This document shows, piece by piece, positions 10,060-19,809 of a stretch of 38,972 nt of DNA. A program made the position numbers and the translations under genes. Source of the stretch: Deltaproteobacteria bacterium (GTDB taxonomy: Bacteria; Myxococcota_A; UBA9160; SMWR01); contig JAFDBP010000118.1 in NCBI GenBank assembly GCA_019313245.1, positions 1 to 38,972 of the forward strand. The letters are read 5' to 3'. How positions within the stretch are numbered: position 1 is the first letter of the stretch; every line of letters begins with the position of its first letter. Below the pieces are notes generated by a model. It searched no databases. It was not told the origin of the DNA and worked only from the letters and a program-made list of their open reading frames with translations.

Positions 10060-12078
10060 GTGGAACACCGTTTTCTCGCGCATCCGTTCGTCCCCCATCG
10101 GCGTCGCACCCGAGAGGTGCGCGTGGGTGACGTGGGCATTGGCGGCTCGAACCCGATCCGAACCCAGTCGATGACGACCACCGACACCCGAAACACTCAG
10201 GCAACGGTCGATCAAGTCGAACTCCTCGCGTCCGTCGGCTGCGAGATCGTGCGCATCACCGCGCCCTCGTTGACCGACGCCGAAAACCTCGCCGCCATCC
10301 GCAAAGAACTCGACCGGCGCAAGGTTCGCGTTCCGCTGGTCGCCGACATCCACTTCACGCCAAATGCCGCGATGACGGCAGCCCAGTACGTCGAGAAGGT
10401 CCGGATCAATCCCGGGAATTTCGCGGACAAGAAGAAATTTGCGGTGCTCGAGTACACGGATGTCGCCTACGCGGAAGAAATCGAACGCGTCGCGGAAAAA
10501 TTCCGCCCGCTCGTGCGGCGTTGCAAGGAACTCGGCCGCGCGATGCGGATCGGCACGAATCACGGATCCCTCTCCGATCGGATCATGAATCGCTTTGGCG
10601 ACACACCGGCCGGGATGGTGGAGAGTGCGCTCGAATTTCTCGACGTCTGCGAGAGCGAGGGCTTCCGCGACATCGTGTTCAGCATGAAATCGAGCAACAC
10701 GCAGGTCGCCATCCAGGCCTACCGACTCCTCGCCGCTCGGCTCGCCGAGCGATCGCCGAACGAGCCGAGCTATCCGTTTCACCTGGGCGTCACCGAGGCG
10801 GGCGATGGCGAGGACGGGCGCATCAAGAGCGCGATCGGAATCGGCGCTCTGCTCGTCGACGGGATCGGCGACACGATTCGCGTATCGCTCACCGAGCCGC
10901 CGGAGAAAGAAATCCCGATCGCCTCGGCGCTCGCGGCGATCGGTTCCGAGTACGGCGGCGTCGCGGTGGAAGTCGTCGATCCCGGCGCGCCTTTCACCGC
11001 GGATCCCTACGCCCACAACCGGCGCGTGACCCGCAGCGTCGGACCGACCGATACCGACATCGGAAGCGATCACCCGGTGCGGGTCGAAGTCGATCTCGGC
11101 GCAGTTCCATCCGATCCGAAACAAACCGCCGAAGCCCTCGTCCGAAACCTCAAGACATGCCCGGACCTCGCGTGTGAAGGCATCGCGGTACACGTCTCCG
11201 GCCCGAACAATGTGCGCTCTCTGCAGACCTTTGCGGACGCCATTGCCGATGCGGGAATGCCGATCCCGCTCGCGGTTTGCGTTGCACCGGATCTGGTCGC
11301 AGAGTGGCCGGTGGGTGTCGCGCGCGTGGTGATCCGTGCGGCTTCGGCACGCGACGACTCACTGCTCGATGCCGCGGCGATGCGCTGCGCGAAATCTCGC
11401 ACTCCAGTCGAATGGAACATCTGCGGAGACATCGAGAAGATTTCCGACCGCCTCGACCGCGCGCTCGAGGCGAGTGCGCGAGTCGAGCTCGACGAGATCC
11501 TCGTCTCGGTCGAGTCGAGCTTGCCGGTGCACGCCACGCGCCTCGTCGCCGCTCGGCTCGAGGCGCGAGGCGCTTCGGATGTGCCGATCGTGCTTCGACA
11601 TCGACGATCCGCCGACGATTCGGACGTAACCGCCCTACTTCGGGCAGCCCACGTGCTCGGCGCGTCGCTGTGTGACGGCATCGGCGACGCCGTCGCGCTC
11701 GAGGGATTCGGCGAACCCGCACGGGCCGTCGATCTCAGCTATCGCATCCTGCAGGGGGCGCGACTGCGAACCTCGCGCACCGAGTTCATTTCGTGTCCCT
11801 CCTGCGGCCGAACGCTCTTCGATCTCGTCGAGACGACAGAGCGCATCAAGGCGCGCACGGGGCACCTCGTGGGTGTGAAGATCGCGATCATGGGATGCAT
11901 CGTGAACGGGCCCGGCGAAATGGCCGACGCCGACTTCGGTTACGTGGGCTCCGGACCCGGACGCGTCAACCTCTACGTCGGCAAAGATCTCGTCGCGCGC
12001 AACATTGCGGACGATACGGCCGACGACCGGCTCGTGGAGCTGATCCGGGAGAGCGGCCGCTGGGTCGATCCCGTCTGA
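10060..12078 (+). CDS. ispG: 4-hydroxy-3-methylbut-2-enyl diphosphate synthase, long form
   Basis: IspG (GcpE) reductively converts methylerythritol cyclodiphosphate to HMBPP in the MEP isoprenoid pathway, using a [4Fe-4S] cluster. The TIM-barrel part is at the N-terminus (SNPIRTQSMTTTDT, LVADIHFTPNAAM, RINPGNFADK). The cluster domain at the C-terminus has Cys579, Cys582, Cys613 and Glu620 (CPSC, then GCIVNGPGE), with spacing close to the E. coli enzyme. At 672 residues it is the long form with a large extra domain in the middle, as in plants, chlamydiae and Bacteroidetes, whereas E. coli IspG has about 370 residues. Start GTG at 10060. It probably shares the alaS transcript. Confidence 0.95.
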   Translation: MEHRFLAHPFVPHRRRTREVRVGDVGIGGSNPIRTQSMTTTDTRNTQATVDQVELLASVGCEIVRITAPSLTDAENLAAIRKELDRRKVRVPLVADIHFTPNAAMTAAQYVEKVRINPGNFADKKKFAVLEYTDVAYAEEIERVAEKFRPLVRRCKELGRAMRIGTNHGSLSDRIMNRFGDTPAGMVESALEFLDVCESEGFRDIVFSMKSSNTQVAIQAYRLLAARLAERSPNEPSYPFHLGVTEAGDGEDGRIKSAIGIGALLVDGIGDTIRVSLTEPPEKEIPIASALAAIGSEYGGVAVEVVDPGAPFTADPYAHNRRVTRSVGPTDTDIGSDHPVRVEVDLGAVPSDPKQTAEALVRNLKTCPDLACEGIAVHVSGPNNVRSLQTFADAIADAGMPIPLAVCVAPDLVAEWPVGVARVVIRAASARDDSLLDAAAMRCAKSRTPVEWNICGDIEKISDRLDRALEASARVELDEILVSVESSLPVHATRLVAARLEARGASDVPIVLRHRRSADDSDVTALLRAAHVLGASLCDGIGDAVALEGFGEPARAVDLSYRILQGARLRTSRTEFISCPSCGRTLFDLVETTERIKARTGHLVGVKIAIMGCIVNGPGEMADADFGYVGSGPGRVNLYVGKDLVARNIADDTADDRLVELIRESGRWVDPV

Positions 12079-12087
12079 AGCCGCGGA

Positions 12088-12624
12088 TCAGTCCGACTTC
12101 GGCGGGCTCGCGACGTCGATTTCCGTCGGCGGCGCTTCACCGGTCAGCCGCTCCATCTGCTCCAGCGCAGCCAGCGTCCGGGTTTTTGCGATCGCGGGGT
12201 GATCCCGGCCGATCCAGTCGCCGACCAGCAGCGTGAGCGCGACGACCACCAGCACGCCCTCGGTCGCTCCGAGCAGTCCGCCACCGACGCGGTCGACGAA
12301 GCCGAGCCCGGCCGCGCGAGCGCCGCGGCGGATGATGCGCCCGACAATCGTCACGGCCCCGATCGCCACGACGACCAGCAGCACACCGGCCACCCAGGGT
12401 TCGAACGCCCCATGGATGCGGCCCCCGCTGATTTCGCCGACCCAATCGGAAACGGGATCCACGAAGGCCCTGACTGCGAAATAGGCGGCCGCGAGCGAGG
12501 CGAGCGAGAACGCTTCGCGGATCAACCCCAAGAACAAGCCGCGCAGACACGCGAGCGCGATGATGGCGCCCACCGCGATGTCGACCGATTCGAATTCCGC
12601 CACGGTGGGTTCAGTGTAGCCCAT
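12088..12624 (-). CDS. cvpA: CvpA family membrane protein
   Basis: This 178-residue protein has about four hydrophobic helices in the CvpA pattern. It begins with DIAVGAIIALACLRGLFLGL and continues with REAFSLASLAAAYFAVR, GVLLVVVAIGAVTIVGRIIRR and GFVDRVGGGLLGATEGVLVV, the last being a strong family signature. CvpA proteins are inner-membrane proteins linked to colicin V export and envelope stress; the molecular function is unclear. No good ribosome site precedes ATG 12624, so the exact start is uncertain. The gene ends ten bases from the ispG stop, facing it. Confidence 0.85.
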   Translation of the reverse strand: MGYTEPTVAEFESVDIAVGAIIALACLRGLFLGLIREAFSLASLAAAYFAVRAFVDPVSDWVGEISGGRIHGAFEPWVAGVLLVVVAIGAVTIVGRIIRRGARAAGLGFVDRVGGGLLGATEGVLVVVALTLLVGDWIGRDHPAIAKTRTLAALEQMERLTGEAPPTEIDVASPPKSD

Positions 12625-12712
12625 GCGAGCATTGCGTTTGACGGAGACGCGCGGAGACCGCAGGATCGTGGCCGATGGCCGACCCGGAGCGAGACTCGGT
12701 CGTTCCCGGCGG

Positions 12713-12728
12713 TTGATTTACCTATCAT
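12713..12728 (+). promoter_or_regulatory. Weak candidate promoter of the symporter cassette
   Basis: The 158-base gap between divergent cvpA and the symporter cassette contains an AT-rich patch, TTGATTTACCTATCAT (12713-12728). TATCAT matches a -10 box at 5 of 6 positions, but there is no clear -35 at 16-18 bases. Nothing else in the gap is recognisable. Confidence 0.25.
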
Positions 12729-12782
12729 CGCCGCCGCCAGCCGTTCGCTGGCTGCGTCGCTGACGGAACGGGGGAAAATCAC

Positions 12783-12899
12783 GTGATCGCCGGCCTTCCC
12801 TGGAGTGCCTGGATCCTGCTGATCGCTGCGGTCGGGCCGGGCGTGACCCTGACCGCGTACTTCTACGTCCGCCGCCGCCGCGAACGGGAAGATCGCTGA
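12783..12899 (+). CDS. Small single-helix symporter accessory protein (38 residues)
   Basis: This short gene starts at GTG 12783 after GGGGGAAAA, and its TGA overlaps the ATG of the downstream symporter (TGATG). The product is one hydrophobic helix (GLPWSAWILLIAAVGPGVTL, then TAYFYV) followed by a charged RRRREREDR tail. That indicates a single-pass inner-membrane peptide with its basic end in the cytoplasm. Tiny proteins encoded just ahead of sodium:solute symporters are known as symporter small accessory proteins. Position, coupling and layout fit that role, but the family assignment is by analogy. Confidence 0.7.
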   Translation: MIAGLPWSAWILLIAAVGPGVTLTAYFYVRRRREREDR

Positions 12900-14365
12900 T
12901 GCCCTCCGGAGCGATCCTCGCGGTCTTGACCGTCTACGGAATCGTGCTCCTCGCGATCGGCTTCTGGAGTTCGCGCGGATCGGGCAGCGTCGCGGGCTAC
13001 TACGTCGCGGACAAGAGCCTGCCCTCGTGGGTGGTGGCTTTCAGTTCGAACGCCACCGGCGAGAGCGCATGGCTCCTGCTCGGCCTGACCGGCATGGGGT
13101 ACATGATCGGAATCCACGCGCTGTGGATCGTGCTCGGCGAAGTCACCGGTGTCGCGCTCGCGTGGGTGTTCGTCGGCACGCGCTTCAAGGCCTACACCGA
13201 CCGCTACGACTCGATCACGGTGCCCGACTACCTCGAGACCCGGTTCCGGGACTTCCGGCACATCCTGCGCATCGTGAGTGTCACGATCCTGCTGACCATG
13301 GTCACCGCCTACACCGCCGCCCAACTGACCGCATCGGGCAAGACCTTCAGTTCGTTCCTCGGAACCACCTATGAAACCGGCGTGCTGATCGGGCTCGCGT
13401 TCATCCTGTTCTACACCATCGTCGGCGGCTTCAAGGCCGTCGCCTACAACGATCTCCTCCACGGTGTCTTGATGTTTGGCGGCCTGTTCGTGCTGCCGAT
13501 CGTCGGGATCATCGCGGTCGGCGGCTGGAGCGAGCTGACCGCCGGTCTACGCGCAATCGATCCCAAGCTGCTCGAGCCGATGGGGAGTTTCGGCTGGTCG
13601 GCCGCGGGCGTCGCGAGCGCGCTCGGTTTCGTGGGGATCGGCCTGGCTTTTCTCGCCACGCCGCAACTTCTGATCCGCTTCATCTCGGCGAGGGATCGCG
13701 ATGAGATCGTCGAGGGCAGCATCATCGCCGTCATCTGCATCGTCGTGTTCGACCTCGGCGCCGTGTTTGCGGGCATGGCGGGGCGCGTCCTCTTCGACGG
13801 GCTGGCCGATCCCGAGACGATCCTGCCGACGATGAGCGCCGAACTCTTCCCGCCGGTCTTCACCGGCGTCTTCATGGTGGTCGTGCTCGCGGCGATCATC
13901 TCCACGGTCGATTCGCTGCTCATCCTCGCTTCGTCGGCCGTGGTGCGCGACCTGGTCCAGAAGGTCTTCAACCCCAACGTCAGCGATCGCCAGCTCTCCC
14001 TGCTCGGCAGGCTGACGACCGCAGTCGTCGGGTTCGGGGCGCTGGCGTTGGCGCTGCAGGAGGTGCGCATCATCTTCTGGTTCGTTCTCTTCGCGTGGTC
14101 GGGGATCGGGTCGGCGTTCGGCCCCGTCGTGCTGTGCTCGCTGTTCTGGAAGCGAACGACGCGAGCCGGTGTGATCGCGGGCATGATCGCGGGTTTTCTG
14201 GCGACCGTATTCTGGGTGCTGTTCTTCAAGGAGAAGTTCTACGATCTCTACGAGATGATCCCGGGCTTCGCGGCGGGTTTCGCCGCAACCATCGGTGTGA
14301 GCTTGTTCACGCAGGCTCCGGAGGGCGCCGGCGAGGAGATGGACGAGCTCACTGCCGAACCGTGA
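12899..14365 (+). CDS. Sodium:solute symporter (SSS/PutP-like)
   Basis: This 488-residue integral membrane protein has the LeuT-fold sodium:solute symporter pattern of about 13 helices. It starts with ILAVLTVYGIVLLAIGFW, followed by VAGYYVADKSLPSWVVAFS, as in PutP. In the helix 8 region, STVDSLLILASS (about residues 335-346) carries the Ser/Thr positions expected at the second sodium site. The substrate cannot be read from sequence; PutP-like members move proline, pantothenate or other organic solutes. The ATG overlaps the stop of the small accessory gene. A 42-base gap separates it from the molybdoenzyme gene, so one operon is likely. Confidence 0.9.
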   Translation: MPSGAILAVLTVYGIVLLAIGFWSSRGSGSVAGYYVADKSLPSWVVAFSSNATGESAWLLLGLTGMGYMIGIHALWIVLGEVTGVALAWVFVGTRFKAYTDRYDSITVPDYLETRFRDFRHILRIVSVTILLTMVTAYTAAQLTASGKTFSSFLGTTYETGVLIGLAFILFYTIVGGFKAVAYNDLLHGVLMFGGLFVLPIVGIIAVGGWSELTAGLRAIDPKLLEPMGSFGWSAAGVASALGFVGIGLAFLATPQLLIRFISARDRDEIVEGSIIAVICIVVFDLGAVFAGMAGRVLFDGLADPETILPTMSAELFPPVFTGVFMVVVLAAIISTVDSLLILASSAVVRDLVQKVFNPNVSDRQLSLLGRLTTAVVGFGALALALQEVRIIFWFVLFAWSGIGSAFGPVVLCSLFWKRTTRAGVIAGMIAGFLATVFWVLFFKEKFYDLYEMIPGFAAGFAATIGVSLFTQAPEGAGEEMDELTAEP

Positions 14366-14407
14366 TCGCGAGCGGGAAGAGCGCCGATCGATCGAGTAGG
14401 ACGGGGC

Positions 14408-16423
14408 ATGGAACGACGGAAGACCATCTGCCCGCTGGACTGCCCGGATGCCTGCGGCATCCAGGCGAGTCTGGAAAACGGCAAGATCATCCGCCTGGAC
14501 GGAGATGCCGAGCACCCGTTTACCCGGGGATTTCTCTGTCAGAAGGTCCGGACCTATCACCACCGCGTTCAATCCGACGAGCGCGTGTTGTTTCCACAGA
14601 TTCGAACCGGCGCCAAGGGAGATGCGCGTTTCGAGCGGATCTCGTGGGATGAGGCGCTGGAGCTGCTGGCTTCGCGGCTGACCGAGATCAAACGCGAGCA
14701 CGGCGGCGAAGCGCTGTTGCCCTATTGCTATGCGGGCAACATGGGCGCGGTGGCGCGCTGGGCGGGGTATGCGTTCTTCAACCGATACGGGGCCTCTCGG
14801 CTGCAGCAGACCATCTGCTCCAGCGCGGCCAAGGCAGCCTGGGCGGCGCACTGCGGATCGCTCCCGGGAAGCCCGCCCGAAATTGCGTCGCACGCCGATC
14901 TGATCCTGGCCTGGGGCATCGACATCAAGGTCACGAACGTCCACTTCTGGCCACTCGTCACGCAAGCCCGTCGGCGGGGCGCGAAGTTGGCGGTGATCGA
15001 TCCGTATCGGAATGTGACCGCCAGGGCAGCGGACTTCTACTTTCCGATTCGACCCGGCGGAGATGCGGCGCTGGCGCTGGGGCTCGCAAAGCGACTTCTC
15101 GACGAGGGCCGTCTGAATCGGAAATTCATCGATCGATACACGGAGGGCTTCGACGAATTCGCGGCGTCGCTGAACGAGAATTCGATCGACGCGCTGATCG
15201 AAGACAGCGGTCTGGATCGAGAGCAGTTCGAAGCATTGGCCGAGCAGATCGCGCAGAACCCGAAGACGTTCATCCGGATCGGCATCGGGCTCACGCGCAA
15301 CACCACCGGCGCGATGTCGGTGCGCGCAATCGTCTGCCTGGCCGCGGCACTGGGTCTGTTCGATGGGGGGGCGGGGCGCGGTGCACTGCTGATGAGCAAC
15401 GCCTTCCCGGGAGATTCGCGCCGGCTCGAGTTTCCCGAATTGAGCGAGAAGCCGACGCGATCGATCAACATGGTGCAACTCGGGGACGCGCTCACGGTGC
15501 TCGCACCCCCCGTAAAGGCCTTGTTCGTCTATAGCAGCAATCCGCTGAGCGTCGCGCCCGACGCGAGCCGGGTGCGCAAGGGATTGGCGCGGGAGGATCT
15601 GTTCACCGTCGTGCACGAGCAGTTCGTGACACCCACCGCGCGTTACGCAGATCTGCTTCTCCCCGCCACCACCTCGTTCGAAAACTGCGACGTGTACACG
15701 AGCTACGGGCACTTCCAGCTGGGCCGGGTGGAACCGGTGATTCCGGCGCGCGGAGAAGCCCTTAGCAACTTCGACTTGTTCCAGCGCCTGGCCGCAAAGA
15801 TGGGTTACGATGACGCGCCGTTCCGCCAGTCGATTGGCGAGCGTCTCGACTCCTACATCGGCACCCTGCAGGGACTGCCCAACGCAGTTCGCAAAGAAGG
15901 CCTCCGGCCGGGCGCGACCATTACGTCCGACGAAGTCGCATTCGCGGGCAACTACTCGCGCTTCGAGCGGGGGCGCTTCCGCTTTGCGCCACAGCACGTA
16001 GAGCCCGCCGTTCCGCGCGTTCTCCCGAGCCGCGAATTCGCCGACGCAGAACTCGAAGCGCGCTATCCACTCCGGTTGATCACGCCGCCGATGCTCGGGC
16101 TGTTGAATTCGACCTTCGGCGAGCGGTTCCCGAAGTGGATCGGCACGCTGATGATGCATCCGCGGGACGCCGAAGCGCGCAATTTGAGCGCGGGCGAGAC
16201 GGTCGAGGTCTTCAATGGGCGGGGATACAACCGGCGCACGCTCGCAATTTCCGAAGATGCGCAGCCCGGCCTCGTCGTCGCACAGGGCATCTACTGGGAA
16301 AACGATGCGTCGGAATCCACCGGCGTGAACGACTTGACGTCGCAGCAGACCACGGATCTGGGTGGAGGCGGAACCTTTCACGAATCCCTGGTGGATGTTC
16401 GCGGCGCGGGCAGCCGCGCGTAG
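14408..16423 (+). CDS. Molybdopterin-dependent oxidoreductase, DMSO reductase superfamily, cytoplasmic
   Basis: This 671-residue enzyme belongs to the bis-MGD molybdenum/tungsten family. The N-terminal [4Fe-4S] site is complete: Cys8, Cys12, Cys16 and Cys44 (CPLDCPDAC, then GFLC). Cys137 in TICSS lies where the metal-ligand loop is expected and may be the molybdenum ligand. The C-terminal dinucleotide-binding domain contains MMHPRDAEARNLSAGE. There is no twin-arginine signal, so it probably stays in the cytoplasm. No iron-sulfur or membrane-anchor partner genes lie nearby. Its stop is followed immediately by the ATG of a second symporter. Substrate unknown; acetylene-hydratase- or hydroxytransferase-like roles cannot be excluded. 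Confidence 0.88.
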   Translation: MERRKTICPLDCPDACGIQASLENGKIIRLDGDAEHPFTRGFLCQKVRTYHHRVQSDERVLFPQIRTGAKGDARFERISWDEALELLASRLTEIKREHGGEALLPYCYAGNMGAVARWAGYAFFNRYGASRLQQTICSSAAKAAWAAHCGSLPGSPPEIASHADLILAWGIDIKVTNVHFWPLVTQARRRGAKLAVIDPYRNVTARAADFYFPIRPGGDAALALGLAKRLLDEGRLNRKFIDRYTEGFDEFAASLNENSIDALIEDSGLDREQFEALAEQIAQNPKTFIRIGIGLTRNTTGAMSVRAIVCLAAALGLFDGGAGRGALLMSNAFPGDSRRLEFPELSEKPTRSINMVQLGDALTVLAPPVKALFVYSSNPLSVAPDASRVRKGLAREDLFTVVHEQFVTPTARYADLLLPATTSFENCDVYTSYGHFQLGRVEPVIPARGEALSNFDLFQRLAAKMGYDDAPFRQSIGERLDSYIGTLQGLPNAVRKEGLRPGATITSDEVAFAGNYSRFERGRFRFAPQHVEPAVPRVLPSREFADAELEARYPLRLITPPMLGLLNSTFGERFPKWIGTLMMHPRDAEARNLSAGETVEVFNGRGYNRRTLAISEDAQPGLVVAQGIYWENDASESTGVNDLTSQQTTDLGGGGTFHESLVDVRGAGSRA

Positions 16424-18166
16424 ATGGACATCTACACCACCAGCATCTTGATCAGCATCGTAATCTACGCGCTAATCGGCAATTACGCGGGGCGGAAGGT
16501 CAAACACCTCGAGGACTACTTCGTGGTGGGACGCCAGGCGCCGACGCTGTTGATCGTCGGCACGCTCGTGGCCAGCGTGCTCAGCACCAACGCCTTCCTG
16601 GGTGAGACCGGCTTTTCCTATGCCACCCAGGGCGGCGCCTACGTGCTGTGGCCGTCGATCTGGGTGACGGGCTACGTGTGGGGCGCGCTCTACTTCGGCC
16701 GCTACCTGCGGCGCAGCCGCAAGCTCACCGTTGCGGAATTCTTCGGCTGGCGCTTCGACAGCCAGGCCGTGCAGGCTGCCGCCGGTGTCACCATCGTAAT
16801 CGGTCTGGGCGGCTATCTGCTGGCTGTCACCCAGGGCGCCGCACTCATCCTCTCTCAACTAACACCCATGAGCTACATCCAGGGTCTCATCGTGGCCTGG
16901 GTGAGTTACACGCTCTTCACCCTCTACTCGGGCTCGCGAGGCGTCGTCATCACCGACACGATCATGTTCCTGCTGTTCACCGTGATGAGCTTCGTCGCGC
17001 TCTACTACATCGTCGGGGCTCACGGAGGCTGGCTGTCCTCCCTCGAGGGGCTCAGTCGACTCGAAGAAAAACCCGACCTGATGAGCTGGCACGGCGTCGT
17101 CGGCCCAGGTACGGAGTGGCCAACCGCCCTCGACTACGCGATCTGGTCGATCGTCCAGGGCATCGCATGGGCGCTCGTCACTGCGGTGAGCCCCTGGCAA
17201 TCGAGTCGCTACCTGATGGCGAAGTCGGAGCACGTGGTGATTCGCTCCGGGTGCATCGCGGCGATCGTCACCGCAGTGAGCAACATGGCGCTCTACGCAG
17301 CGGCGACCGTGGTCAACCTCAGCAAGATCGACATCTTCCCCGACGATCAGACGATGATCTGGGCGGCCCTCAACATGATGCCGCCACTGATCGGCGCCCT
17401 GCTGCTGGCCGGCGTCGCGGCGGCGGCGTTTTCTTCGGCGACGACCTTCCTGTCGCTGATCGGCTTCAGCGTGACGCAGGACATCTTTCCCCACCGCGAG
17501 CGCGACGATCGCAGCATGCTTCGCCTCAGCCGCACGATGATGCTGCTCGTCGGCGCGGTGGCGCTCCTGATCAGCCTGTTCCTGCCGCCGAGCATCTTCT
17601 GGCTGGCGTACTACGTCGGCACGGTATTCGCCTCATCGTGGGGCGCCGTCGGCTTCATGAGCGTGTGGAGCGACAAGATCACCGCGCGCGCGGCCTACTG
17701 GGGCATCATCTCGGGCTTCGTCGGAAACGTCATCCCGCGTCTGTTCGACACGCTGGGCTGGATCGATCTGCCCTCGTATCTGAATCCGATCGTGATCGGT
17801 GGCGCAATCAGCCTCGTCGTCGTCGTGTGCCTATCCCACCTCGGCGGCGTGACCGAAGTGCAGCGCGCGCGCCGGCTGGCACTGCACGAGACACCCGAAG
17901 AAGATCGCGACGCCGCGCAAACCGGGAAGACACAGCGAAGCGCCCTCGGCGTCGCGATCTCGGGCGTCTTTCTGACAGCGATGCTGCTGTACTACTACGT
18001 GTTTCCCTATCAGCGAACCACCGGCACCCTGCGCGAAGGTGGCGGGCTCGACTGGTGGTCGGTCGAGGCCCTGCTGGCGATGGCCTGGGCGGCGCTCTAC
18101 GTGCCCTGGGGCATCATGGCCTACAAGGTGGTCGGCCGTTCCTATGCGAGCAAGCGGCCGCACTGA
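16424..18166 (+). CDS. Second sodium:solute symporter family protein
   Basis: This 580-residue membrane protein also has the SSS fold but belongs to a different branch from the first symporter. The start has YALIGNYAGRKVKHLEDYFVV, and the sodium-site helix reads AAAAFSSATTFLSLIGFS (about residues 332-349). A cytoplasmic loop (GVTEVQRARRLALHETPEE) precedes the last two helices. The ATG directly follows the TAG of the molybdoenzyme gene without a clear ribosome site, which suggests coupled translation. Two different symporters around one enzyme gene suggest uptake of its substrate or exchange of its product, but this is inference. Confidence 0.88.
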   Translation: MDIYTTSILISIVIYALIGNYAGRKVKHLEDYFVVGRQAPTLLIVGTLVASVLSTNAFLGETGFSYATQGGAYVLWPSIWVTGYVWGALYFGRYLRRSRKLTVAEFFGWRFDSQAVQAAAGVTIVIGLGGYLLAVTQGAALILSQLTPMSYIQGLIVAWVSYTLFTLYSGSRGVVITDTIMFLLFTVMSFVALYYIVGAHGGWLSSLEGLSRLEEKPDLMSWHGVVGPGTEWPTALDYAIWSIVQGIAWALVTAVSPWQSSRYLMAKSEHVVIRSGCIAAIVTAVSNMALYAAATVVNLSKIDIFPDDQTMIWAALNMMPPLIGALLLAGVAAAAFSSATTFLSLIGFSVTQDIFPHRERDDRSMLRLSRTMMLLVGAVALLISLFLPPSIFWLAYYVGTVFASSWGAVGFMSVWSDKITARAAYWGIISGFVGNVIPRLFDTLGWIDLPSYLNPIVIGGAISLVVVVCLSHLGGVTEVQRARRLALHETPEEDRDAAQTGKTQRSALGVAISGVFLTAMLLYYYVFPYQRTTGTLREGGGLDWWSVEALLAMAWAALYVPWGIMAYKVVGRSYASKRPH

Positions 18167-18214
18167 AGCTCGCGGTTGGCGATTCGAATCGAAGCCGCGA
18201 ACCCGCATCGACCT

Positions 18215-18262
18215 GCATGGATCCCCATGCCGACCGACGCGCGGGTGCGGGTTGCCCTCGCG
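18215..18262. terminator. Two adjacent hairpins between convergent genes
   Basis: GCATGG-ATCC-CCATGC (18215-18230) is a perfect six-pair hairpin. CGCGcGGG (18238-18245) pairs with CCCtCGCG (18255-18262) with one mismatch. They lie just past the second symporter and just before the 3' end of the minus-strand dehydratase gene, so a bidirectional terminator is plausible. There is no U tract. Confidence 0.35.
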
Positions 18263-18270
18263 CGGCGCCC

Positions 18271-19809
18271 TCAACGCTTCGCAGCTTCGTCTCGCGCCGG
18301 AACTCCCGCGAGGCGTTTTGCGAGCCCCTTCTTCATTTCGAGCTCCGCCTGTCGGCCGATCTGGATGCGCTGCGCCTGGGGCGAGCCGGCGCCGTGCATC
18401 GACTCGGTCAGATAGCCGACGGCGTTGCGGCCCATGGTGAGGTTCTCGATCAGGCGCAGGATCCGGATGCGATCTTCCGTCGGGACATCGGAGCGCCCCT
18501 TCAGATACTTCTCGAGCAGGGGCCCCGTCTGCTCCGAGCGCAGGTCCGCCTCCGACGGACAGGTGACGAGCAGGCCCCCGGCGATGTCCTGTGCGAGACG
18601 CGCGATCTCGTACGGAAAGCGCGTCACGTTGTGCTTGCAGACGTTCGCGAGCATGTCGTTGGGTTCGTAGTTGCCCGCTGGCCGTCGAGCCGACTCGTGC
18701 GAGGCGGCGATTCCGGTGCCGTAGAGCGTCTCGTTCAGGTGCGTCATCTCGATCAGCTTGTCGCGGATGTGGGAGGCGTGCGGCACCCCGTTCATCTCCG
18801 CGATGCTTGCGGCCGCGCCCACCAGCACATCGCCGAGCCCGCTCTTGCAGACGTAGCTCCGGCGGTGGTAGCAGGTAAAGCGCTCGACGAGCGGGGCCGC
18901 CCACTCCACCTCTCCATCGAGAAACACCCGATCCCAGGGCACGAACACATCCTCGAGTACGATGAGGGCCTCCTGGCCGCTGAAGCCGGCGTTGCCGGCG
19001 TCGATGTCACCGCCTTCGAGCGCCCGGGTGTCGCACGACTGGCGTCCGTAGATGTAGGTGAGCCCCGGCGCATCCGCCGGGATCGCCGCGACGATCGCGT
19101 AGTCGCGATCGACCTCCCTGAGGCGCATGGTCGGCATCACGACGATCCAGTGGGAGTTCACGCAGCCCGTCTGGTGCGCCTTCGCGCCGCGCAGAACGAC
19201 GCCGTCGTCCCGACGCTCCACCACGCGCACGAAGAGATCCGGATCGTCCTGGTCTGCCGGGCCCTTGCTGCGATCGCCCTTCGGATCCGTCATGGCGCCG
19301 CCCACCACGAGGTTCCTCTGCTGTACGTGGCTCAAGAATTGGCGCAGCCGCTCGTGGTACGGCGTGCCCCTCTCCCGGTCGACTTCGTGGGTGATCGAAA
19401 AGAGGGCGTTGAAGGCGTCCATCCCGACGCAGCGCTGGAAGCACGTTCCCGTGAGCTGTCCGAGCCGGCGCTGCATCTTGTTCTGCAGCACCACGTCGTC
19501 GACACCCTCGGTCACGTGCAGGAAGCGGTTCACGGGCGCGTCGATGATGGACGAGTGTGCGGTCGCGAGCTCCGGGTCCGCCAGAGCGAGATCGTAGGTC
19601 TCGGCGACCGCGTTGACGGACGCCCGGATCAGCGGATGGTCGACCGGTTCCTCCACCCGCTCGCCAAACAGATAGACGCGCAGGCCGCGCCCGCGCAGGC
19701 TCGCCACGTAGTCGTCACCCGTGCGGATCGGTTGCTCGGGGCTCGGATGAAAGCGCGCCGGCTCACAAGCCGGTGCGTCTGAGATCGCTGCAGTCGGCTT
19801 CTCGGGCAT
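18271..19809 (-). CDS. abfD: 4-hydroxybutyryl-CoA dehydratase / vinylacetyl-CoA isomerase (HpaB superfamily)
   Basis: The 512-residue product closely follows the clostridial AbfD pattern. This FAD and [4Fe-4S] enzyme dehydrates 4-hydroxybutyryl-CoA to crotonyl-CoA. Recognisable blocks are VDHPLIR, CFQRCVGMDAFNALF, GAMTDPKGDRS, GAKAHQTG, YGRQSCDTR, HIRDKLIEMTHLNETLY, ANVCKHNVTRFPYEI and TESMHGAGSPQAQRI. All four cluster ligands have counterparts: Cys123, Cys127, His315 and Cys321. The His-to-Cys spacing is one residue shorter than in the clostridial protein (YVCK, not YGGCK). ATG 19809 is preferred over GTG 19842 because GAGGA lies seven bases upstream. It faces the symporter cassette and probably serves 4-hydroxybutyrate or GABA use. 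Confidence 0.9.
   Translation of the reverse strand: MPEKPTAAISDAPACEPARFHPSPEQPIRTGDDYVASLRGRGLRVYLFGERVEEPVDHPLIRASVNAVAETYDLALADPELATAHSSIIDAPVNRFLHVTEGVDDVVLQNKMQRRLGQLTGTCFQRCVGMDAFNALFSITHEVDRERGTPYHERLRQFLSHVQQRNLVVGGAMTDPKGDRSKGPADQDDPDLFVRVVERRDDGVVLRGAKAHQTGCVNSHWIVVMPTMRLREVDRDYAIVAAIPADAPGLTYIYGRQSCDTRALEGGDIDAGNAGFSGQEALIVLEDVFVPWDRVFLDGEVEWAAPLVERFTCYHRRSYVCKSGLGDVLVGAAASIAEMNGVPHASHIRDKLIEMTHLNETLYGTGIAASHESARRPAGNYEPNDMLANVCKHNVTRFPYEIARLAQDIAGGLLVTCPSEADLRSEQTGPLLEKYLKGRSDVPTEDRIRILRLIENLTMGRNAVGYLTESMHGAGSPQAQRIQIGRQAELEMKKGLAKRLAGVPARDEAAKR

Follow-up and report, generated by a model that had tools for sequence, protein, structure and literature searches.

The window, by which we mean the whole stretch of DNA analysed (38,972 nucleotides), is contig C118 of a MAG of 3.88 Mb in 308 contigs, 84% complete and with 3.5% contamination. 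Between the alaS-ispG-cvpA genes on one side and the TPR-yfiO genes on the other, it carries a molybdoenzyme gene flanked by two genes of sodium:solute symporters (SSS1 and SSS2) and preceded by a small open reading frame:

12783-12899, + strand: ORF of 38 codons with one hydrophobic stretch, overlapping the start of SSS1 by 1 base; a doubtful gene.
12899-14365, + strand: SSS1, a PutP-like sodium:solute symporter of 488 aa (PF00474, 1.1e-77); a lineage-specific insertion.
14408-16423, + strand: single-subunit molybdopterin (bis-PGD type) oxidoreductase of 671 aa, predicted to be cytoplasmic (Pfam, motif alignment, AlphaFold model).
16424-18166, + strand: SSS2, a divergent sodium:solute symporter of 580 aa (PF00474, 7.7e-23).

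The gene junctions are exactly those of the original prediction. The small ORF and SSS1 overlap in TGATG (TGA at 12897-12899, ATG at 12899), a spacer of 42 bases separates SSS1 from the enzyme, and the TAG of the enzyme is followed by the ATG of SSS2 with 0 bases between them. The two flanking genes are indeed SSS symporters, as both exceed the cut-off of the Pfam SSF profile (262 bits for SSS1 and 81 bits for SSS2, against 22.8), and the enzyme has the Pfam domains Molybdop_Fe4S4, Molybdopterin, and Molydop_binding, each above its cut-off. The suggestion of one transcript comes from the spacing only. A scan of positions 12600-18400 found no sigma-70-type promoter, a weak result because the chance expectation was 0.8. 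Upstream of the cassette, IspG (10060-12078, + strand) is of a long form of 672 aa, in which the GcpE profile matches two separate stretches.

The four cysteine ligands of the Fe-S cluster (C8, C12, C16, and C44) and the candidate Mo ligand (C137) are the same in all 30 relatives that were aligned, and the full [4Fe-4S] site that had been read from the sequence is thus upheld. The Fe-S motif starts at residue 8, which leaves no space for a Tat signal, and no gene for a partner subunit was found near the enzyme; the earlier description of a single-subunit cytoplasmic protein stands. The AlphaFold model of the enzyme (pLDDT 89.7, pTM 0.91) has its best fold matches in the PDB among formate dehydrogenases, DMSO reductases, Nap, and acetylene hydratase, all at about 20% identity, and Cys137 aligns with Sec140 of FdhF and with the Cys of NapA. 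In the search against the curated families of NCBIfam, the enzyme fell far under every cut-off. Its fold is common to proteins of the BisC/DMSO reductase type, but DMSO, TMAO, and biotin sulfoxide reductases have a Ser as Mo ligand where the enzyme has Cys137, and BisC lacks the Fe-S motif that the enzyme carries. All four genomes of the genus have cofactor genes of the MoeA type.

Two trees place the enzyme in a clade of four rows with its relatives from the genus and a gammaproteobacterial protein (L009, 61% identity). This clade lies within a broad family whose single-subunit members come from Bacillota, Pseudomonadota, Acidobacteriota, Chloroflexota, Planctomycetota, Actinomycetota, Cyanobacteriota, and other Myxococcota. 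In both trees the family is apart from FdhF, NapA, DmsA, BisC, and YdeP of E. coli, so that the enzyme falls outside the sampled respiratory clades, as the original prediction implied. In the second tree the family lies nearer to DmsA and BisC than to FdhF and Nap. Part of the deep branching is open and several of the reference rows are long, and we therefore make no claim on its order. The enzyme groups with relatives from Neobacillus and Anoxybacillus, with an inner branch order that is partly open. Such Bacillaceae-type relatives (37-40% identity), rather than the YoaE and YyaE sequences themselves, are what places the family, which is probably the YoaE/YyaE branch of B. subtilis. This branch of the DMSO reductase superfamily is cytoplasmic and of unassigned function, its genome context is uninformative, and its position in the tree suggests S- or N-oxide reduction (PMC4257093). 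The enzyme of the window is likewise cytoplasmic and stand-alone, with about 670 aa, an Fe4S4 motif at the extreme N-terminus, and no signal peptide; a neighbour like SSS2, in contrast, is not reported for the B. subtilis proteins. Judged by its sequence, the enzyme is a stand-alone cytoplasmic protein of the DMSO reductase superfamily, from a widespread and uncharacterised family.

The symporters have 33% (SSS1) and 21% (SSS2) identity to PutP of E. coli, and both retain the Na2-site positions. SSS1 belongs with PutP to the SSF family and keeps its Na2-site residues (A53/A337/S340/T341), but D55 and W244 are replaced and its score with the PutP equivalog model (363 bits) is under the cut-off of 515.5. 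The pair S340/T341 of PutP aligns with S335/T336 in SSS1 and with Ser337/Ser338 in SSS2, and in both symporters the substrate-site positions differ from those of PutP. The structure model of SSS2 was poor (pLDDT 43.8, from a shallow alignment) and was left out of the analysis. We also considered the small ORF as a known type of symporter accessory subunit and rejected this, having found no convincing NCBIfam match and no support in the literature.

We then compared the locus across the four genomes that sample the genus: that of the window (G000), G006, G007, and G008. The 85% identical enzyme relative labelled Myxococcota in the tree (L010) was taken to be the copy on contig C94 of G008, which has the same length, and was counted once. 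The surroundings of the locus in G006 and G008 are collinear with the window, with 84-91% identity on both sides (blastn), but the alignments end at position 12686 of the window and restart at 14368-14373, i.e., 3-8 bases past the stop codon of SSS1. The segment 12687-14367, which contains the 38-codon ORF and SSS1, has no counterpart in these two genomes. Its place is taken in both by a gene that we name from its sequence as a Kv-type channel, and additionally in G008 by a gene resembling a CaCA exchanger, named in the same way. G007 has the same order of CvpA and Kv channel and no enzyme or symporter gene there. SSS1 is absent from all three of these genomes, and a search of the window for a remnant of the Kv channel found none. 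The most parsimonious reading is that SSS1 and the small ORF took the place of the Kv-channel gene in the lineage of the window. The 42-base leader upstream of the enzyme is common to the relatives without SSS1 and goes with the enzyme gene. The three-gene cassette is thus not conserved, and the insertion of SSS1 is seen in this one genome only. On the other side of the cassette, an HpaB-family gene (PF11794/PF03241; 18271-19842, - strand) converges with SSS2. It is missing from the same spot in G006, where about 0.5 kb of other sequence is found, and so represents a second variable insertion at the locus.

The enzyme and SSS2 show a different pattern. In G006 they are adjacent, at 85% and 87% identity, with the same 0-base TAG-ATG junction. 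In G008 the enzyme is syntenic and 85% identical, and the contig stops 19 bases beyond its stop codon; these last bases match the start of SSS2, with ATC instead of ATG, so SSS2 very probably follows the enzyme there too, its start changed or misread. Between the window and G006, synonymous codon changes exceed amino-acid changes both in the enzyme (168 vs 104) and in SSS2 (103 vs 75), as would be expected if both genes are under selection. The enzyme and SSS2 form a shared two-gene unit only within this small genus-level group of uncultured Myxococcota. Relatives of SSS2 occur at 75-80% identity in three genomes of other genera (G010, G015, and G038), all without the enzyme, and a paralogue (55%) lies on contig C207 of the window's own genome. 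G010 and G015 are MAGs placed in different genera, and about 9 kb around their SSS2 relatives (L104 and L105) are nearly identical; this near identity means that the two loci may be one contaminant or a case of bin cross-contamination. Co-occurrence in relatives thus held for the enzyme and SSS2 within the genus, and the refuting case named in the original prediction, unlinked genes in close relatives, applies to SSS1 and in part to SSS2, which is without the enzyme in other genera.

Further away, the enzyme family keeps other company. No SSS gene was found near any of 80 enzyme relatives elsewhere, in flanks that extended to 7 kb, or less where a contig ended. Among 64 near same-strand neighbours scanned with Pfam, the commonest families were MFS (10) and formate/nitrite transporters (9), mainly from Paenibacillus, and SSF is absent from the commonest families listed. 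In about 10 of the Paenibacillus loci (L013-L033), a transporter of the formate/nitrite family lies upstream of the enzyme relative and an MFS transporter downstream. The gammaproteobacterial relative (L009) follows an Fe-ADH gene at a distance of 12 bp, and a hydrolase gene and a cupin gene lie upstream. On alphaproteobacterial plasmids, members of the same family (37-39% identity) adjoin genes for ferredoxin, FAD oxidoreductase, and MoaA or Glp; the clusters of Thioclava, Allorhizobium, and Agrobacterium (L228, L229, and L230) also include an AraC regulator. The window differs from these clusters in having neither electron-transfer genes nor such a regulator, and in having a symporter. The plasmid arrangement supports a soluble ferredoxin route and suggests that this type of electron transfer is open to members of the family. 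Together, these neighbourhoods suggest that lineages pair the enzyme family with differing partners, some of them carriers of small solutes.

The reading that we prefer, with a probability of about 0.5, is that the enzyme and SSS2 are a genus-level unit in a spot prone to gene exchange, that SSS1 replaced a Kv channel there, and that SSS2 imports a solute for the enzyme. SSS2, which keeps the Na2-site residues, would take up a small organic solute using the sodium gradient, and the site of its oxidation or reduction would be the Cys-ligated Mo(W)-bis-PGD centre of the cytoplasmic enzyme. The enzyme's one [4Fe-4S] cluster would exchange electrons with a soluble ferredoxin or flavoprotein of general use, the gene of which lies elsewhere. 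The most that SSS1 would contribute is a second, dispensable route of import. The functional link between the enzyme and SSS2 would be one of guilt by adjacency in two to three genomes, because the two genes are together only in the genus, SSS2 occurs elsewhere without the enzyme, and SSS genes are missing from the flanks of all 80 enzyme relatives. A rival account is that the enzyme, SSS2, and SSS1 came together by chance at a variable locus and serve separate pathways. The genes that vary at the spot among the four genomes (the Kv channel, the CaCA-like exchanger, the HpaB-like gene, and SSS1) speak for such an account, as do the unrelated neighbours of the enzyme family elsewhere and the SSS2 relatives that occur without the enzyme. 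Against it speaks the retention of the 0-base junction across about 15% protein divergence between two species, with traces in a third genome. We hold this account to be a serious possibility, if one on the lower side of even odds.

The tight spacing in the window had led the original prediction to treat the three genes as one system, that is, as an import-and-transform pathway with two symporters. The absence of SSS1 from all other genomes of the genus speaks against this, as does the distribution of its relatives. Best matches to SSS1 elsewhere in the family reach only 43%, and relatives were found in 36 of the 379 genomes sampled from the phylum, the window's included. We examined the other 35 neighbourhoods, 32 of them by phmmer with several molybdoenzyme queries and two by gene lists, the last being that of G265. 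None of the 32 has a molybdoenzyme, and neither do the two examined by gene lists (G001 and G005), in which demethylase-like genes are near. The exception is G265 (L127, 10264-14098, - strand), where the nearest relative of SSS1 in the order (51%) lies 58 bp from a molybdoenzyme of 775 aa and of a different family. This other family, common in the order, was found in 20 of the sampled genomes, of which nearly all lack a close relative of SSS1; we treated the adjacency in G265 as a probable coincidence. With this single positive among 35, a general association between SSS1 and molybdoenzymes was rejected, and a true three-gene system appears unlikely. It is also improbable, and slightly more so, that an SSS1-type symporter was set non-randomly beside two different molybdoenzyme families (in the window and in G265) to form import-and-redox pathways. 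The substrates of such pathways would perhaps be methylated amines, since some SSS1 relatives adjoin demethylase-like genes. The locus of G265 is also near a gene resembling OYE/dimethylamine dehydrogenase and broken pieces resembling an FAD oxidoreductase.

Two further explanations have very little left to recommend them. The enzyme could be a cytoplasmic formate dehydrogenase of the FdhF type, since an FdhF subunit is its top PDB match by sequence, formate dehydrogenases are among its best fold matches, and the Paenibacillus relatives adjoin a formate/nitrite-family transporter; but the catalytic His141 of these dehydrogenases is replaced by Ser138, directly after Cys137, the position of Arg333 is not conserved in the enzyme family, the score with the formate dehydrogenase model is 212 bits against a cut-off of 666 (NCBIfam), and both trees set the enzyme apart from FdhF, and we rejected this identity on the active-site residues and the model score as highly improbable. 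The segment with SSS1 is equally hard to explain as a binning or assembly chimera, which the fragmentation and contamination of the MAG and the uniqueness of SSS1 in the genus might suggest, because both flanks are on one contig and collinear with the relatives and the G+C content of SSS1 (0.647) is in line with that of the neighbouring genes.

The three-gene layout therefore matters little, one of its genes being a local insertion, and the case is a largely ordinary one, with known parts arranged locally around an enzyme family that is itself known, if uncharacterised. In the literature we found nothing beyond "unknown" on the function of YoaE or on an SSS-molybdoenzyme operon, and no assigned reaction for the enzyme family, which is widespread, with eight phyla represented in the loci that we examined. 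The pairing with SSS2 and the pairing with ferredoxin and FAD oxidoreductase on rhizobial plasmids are handles on the substrate and the electron donor of the enzyme, and the plasmid cluster is a good lead to both for the family.
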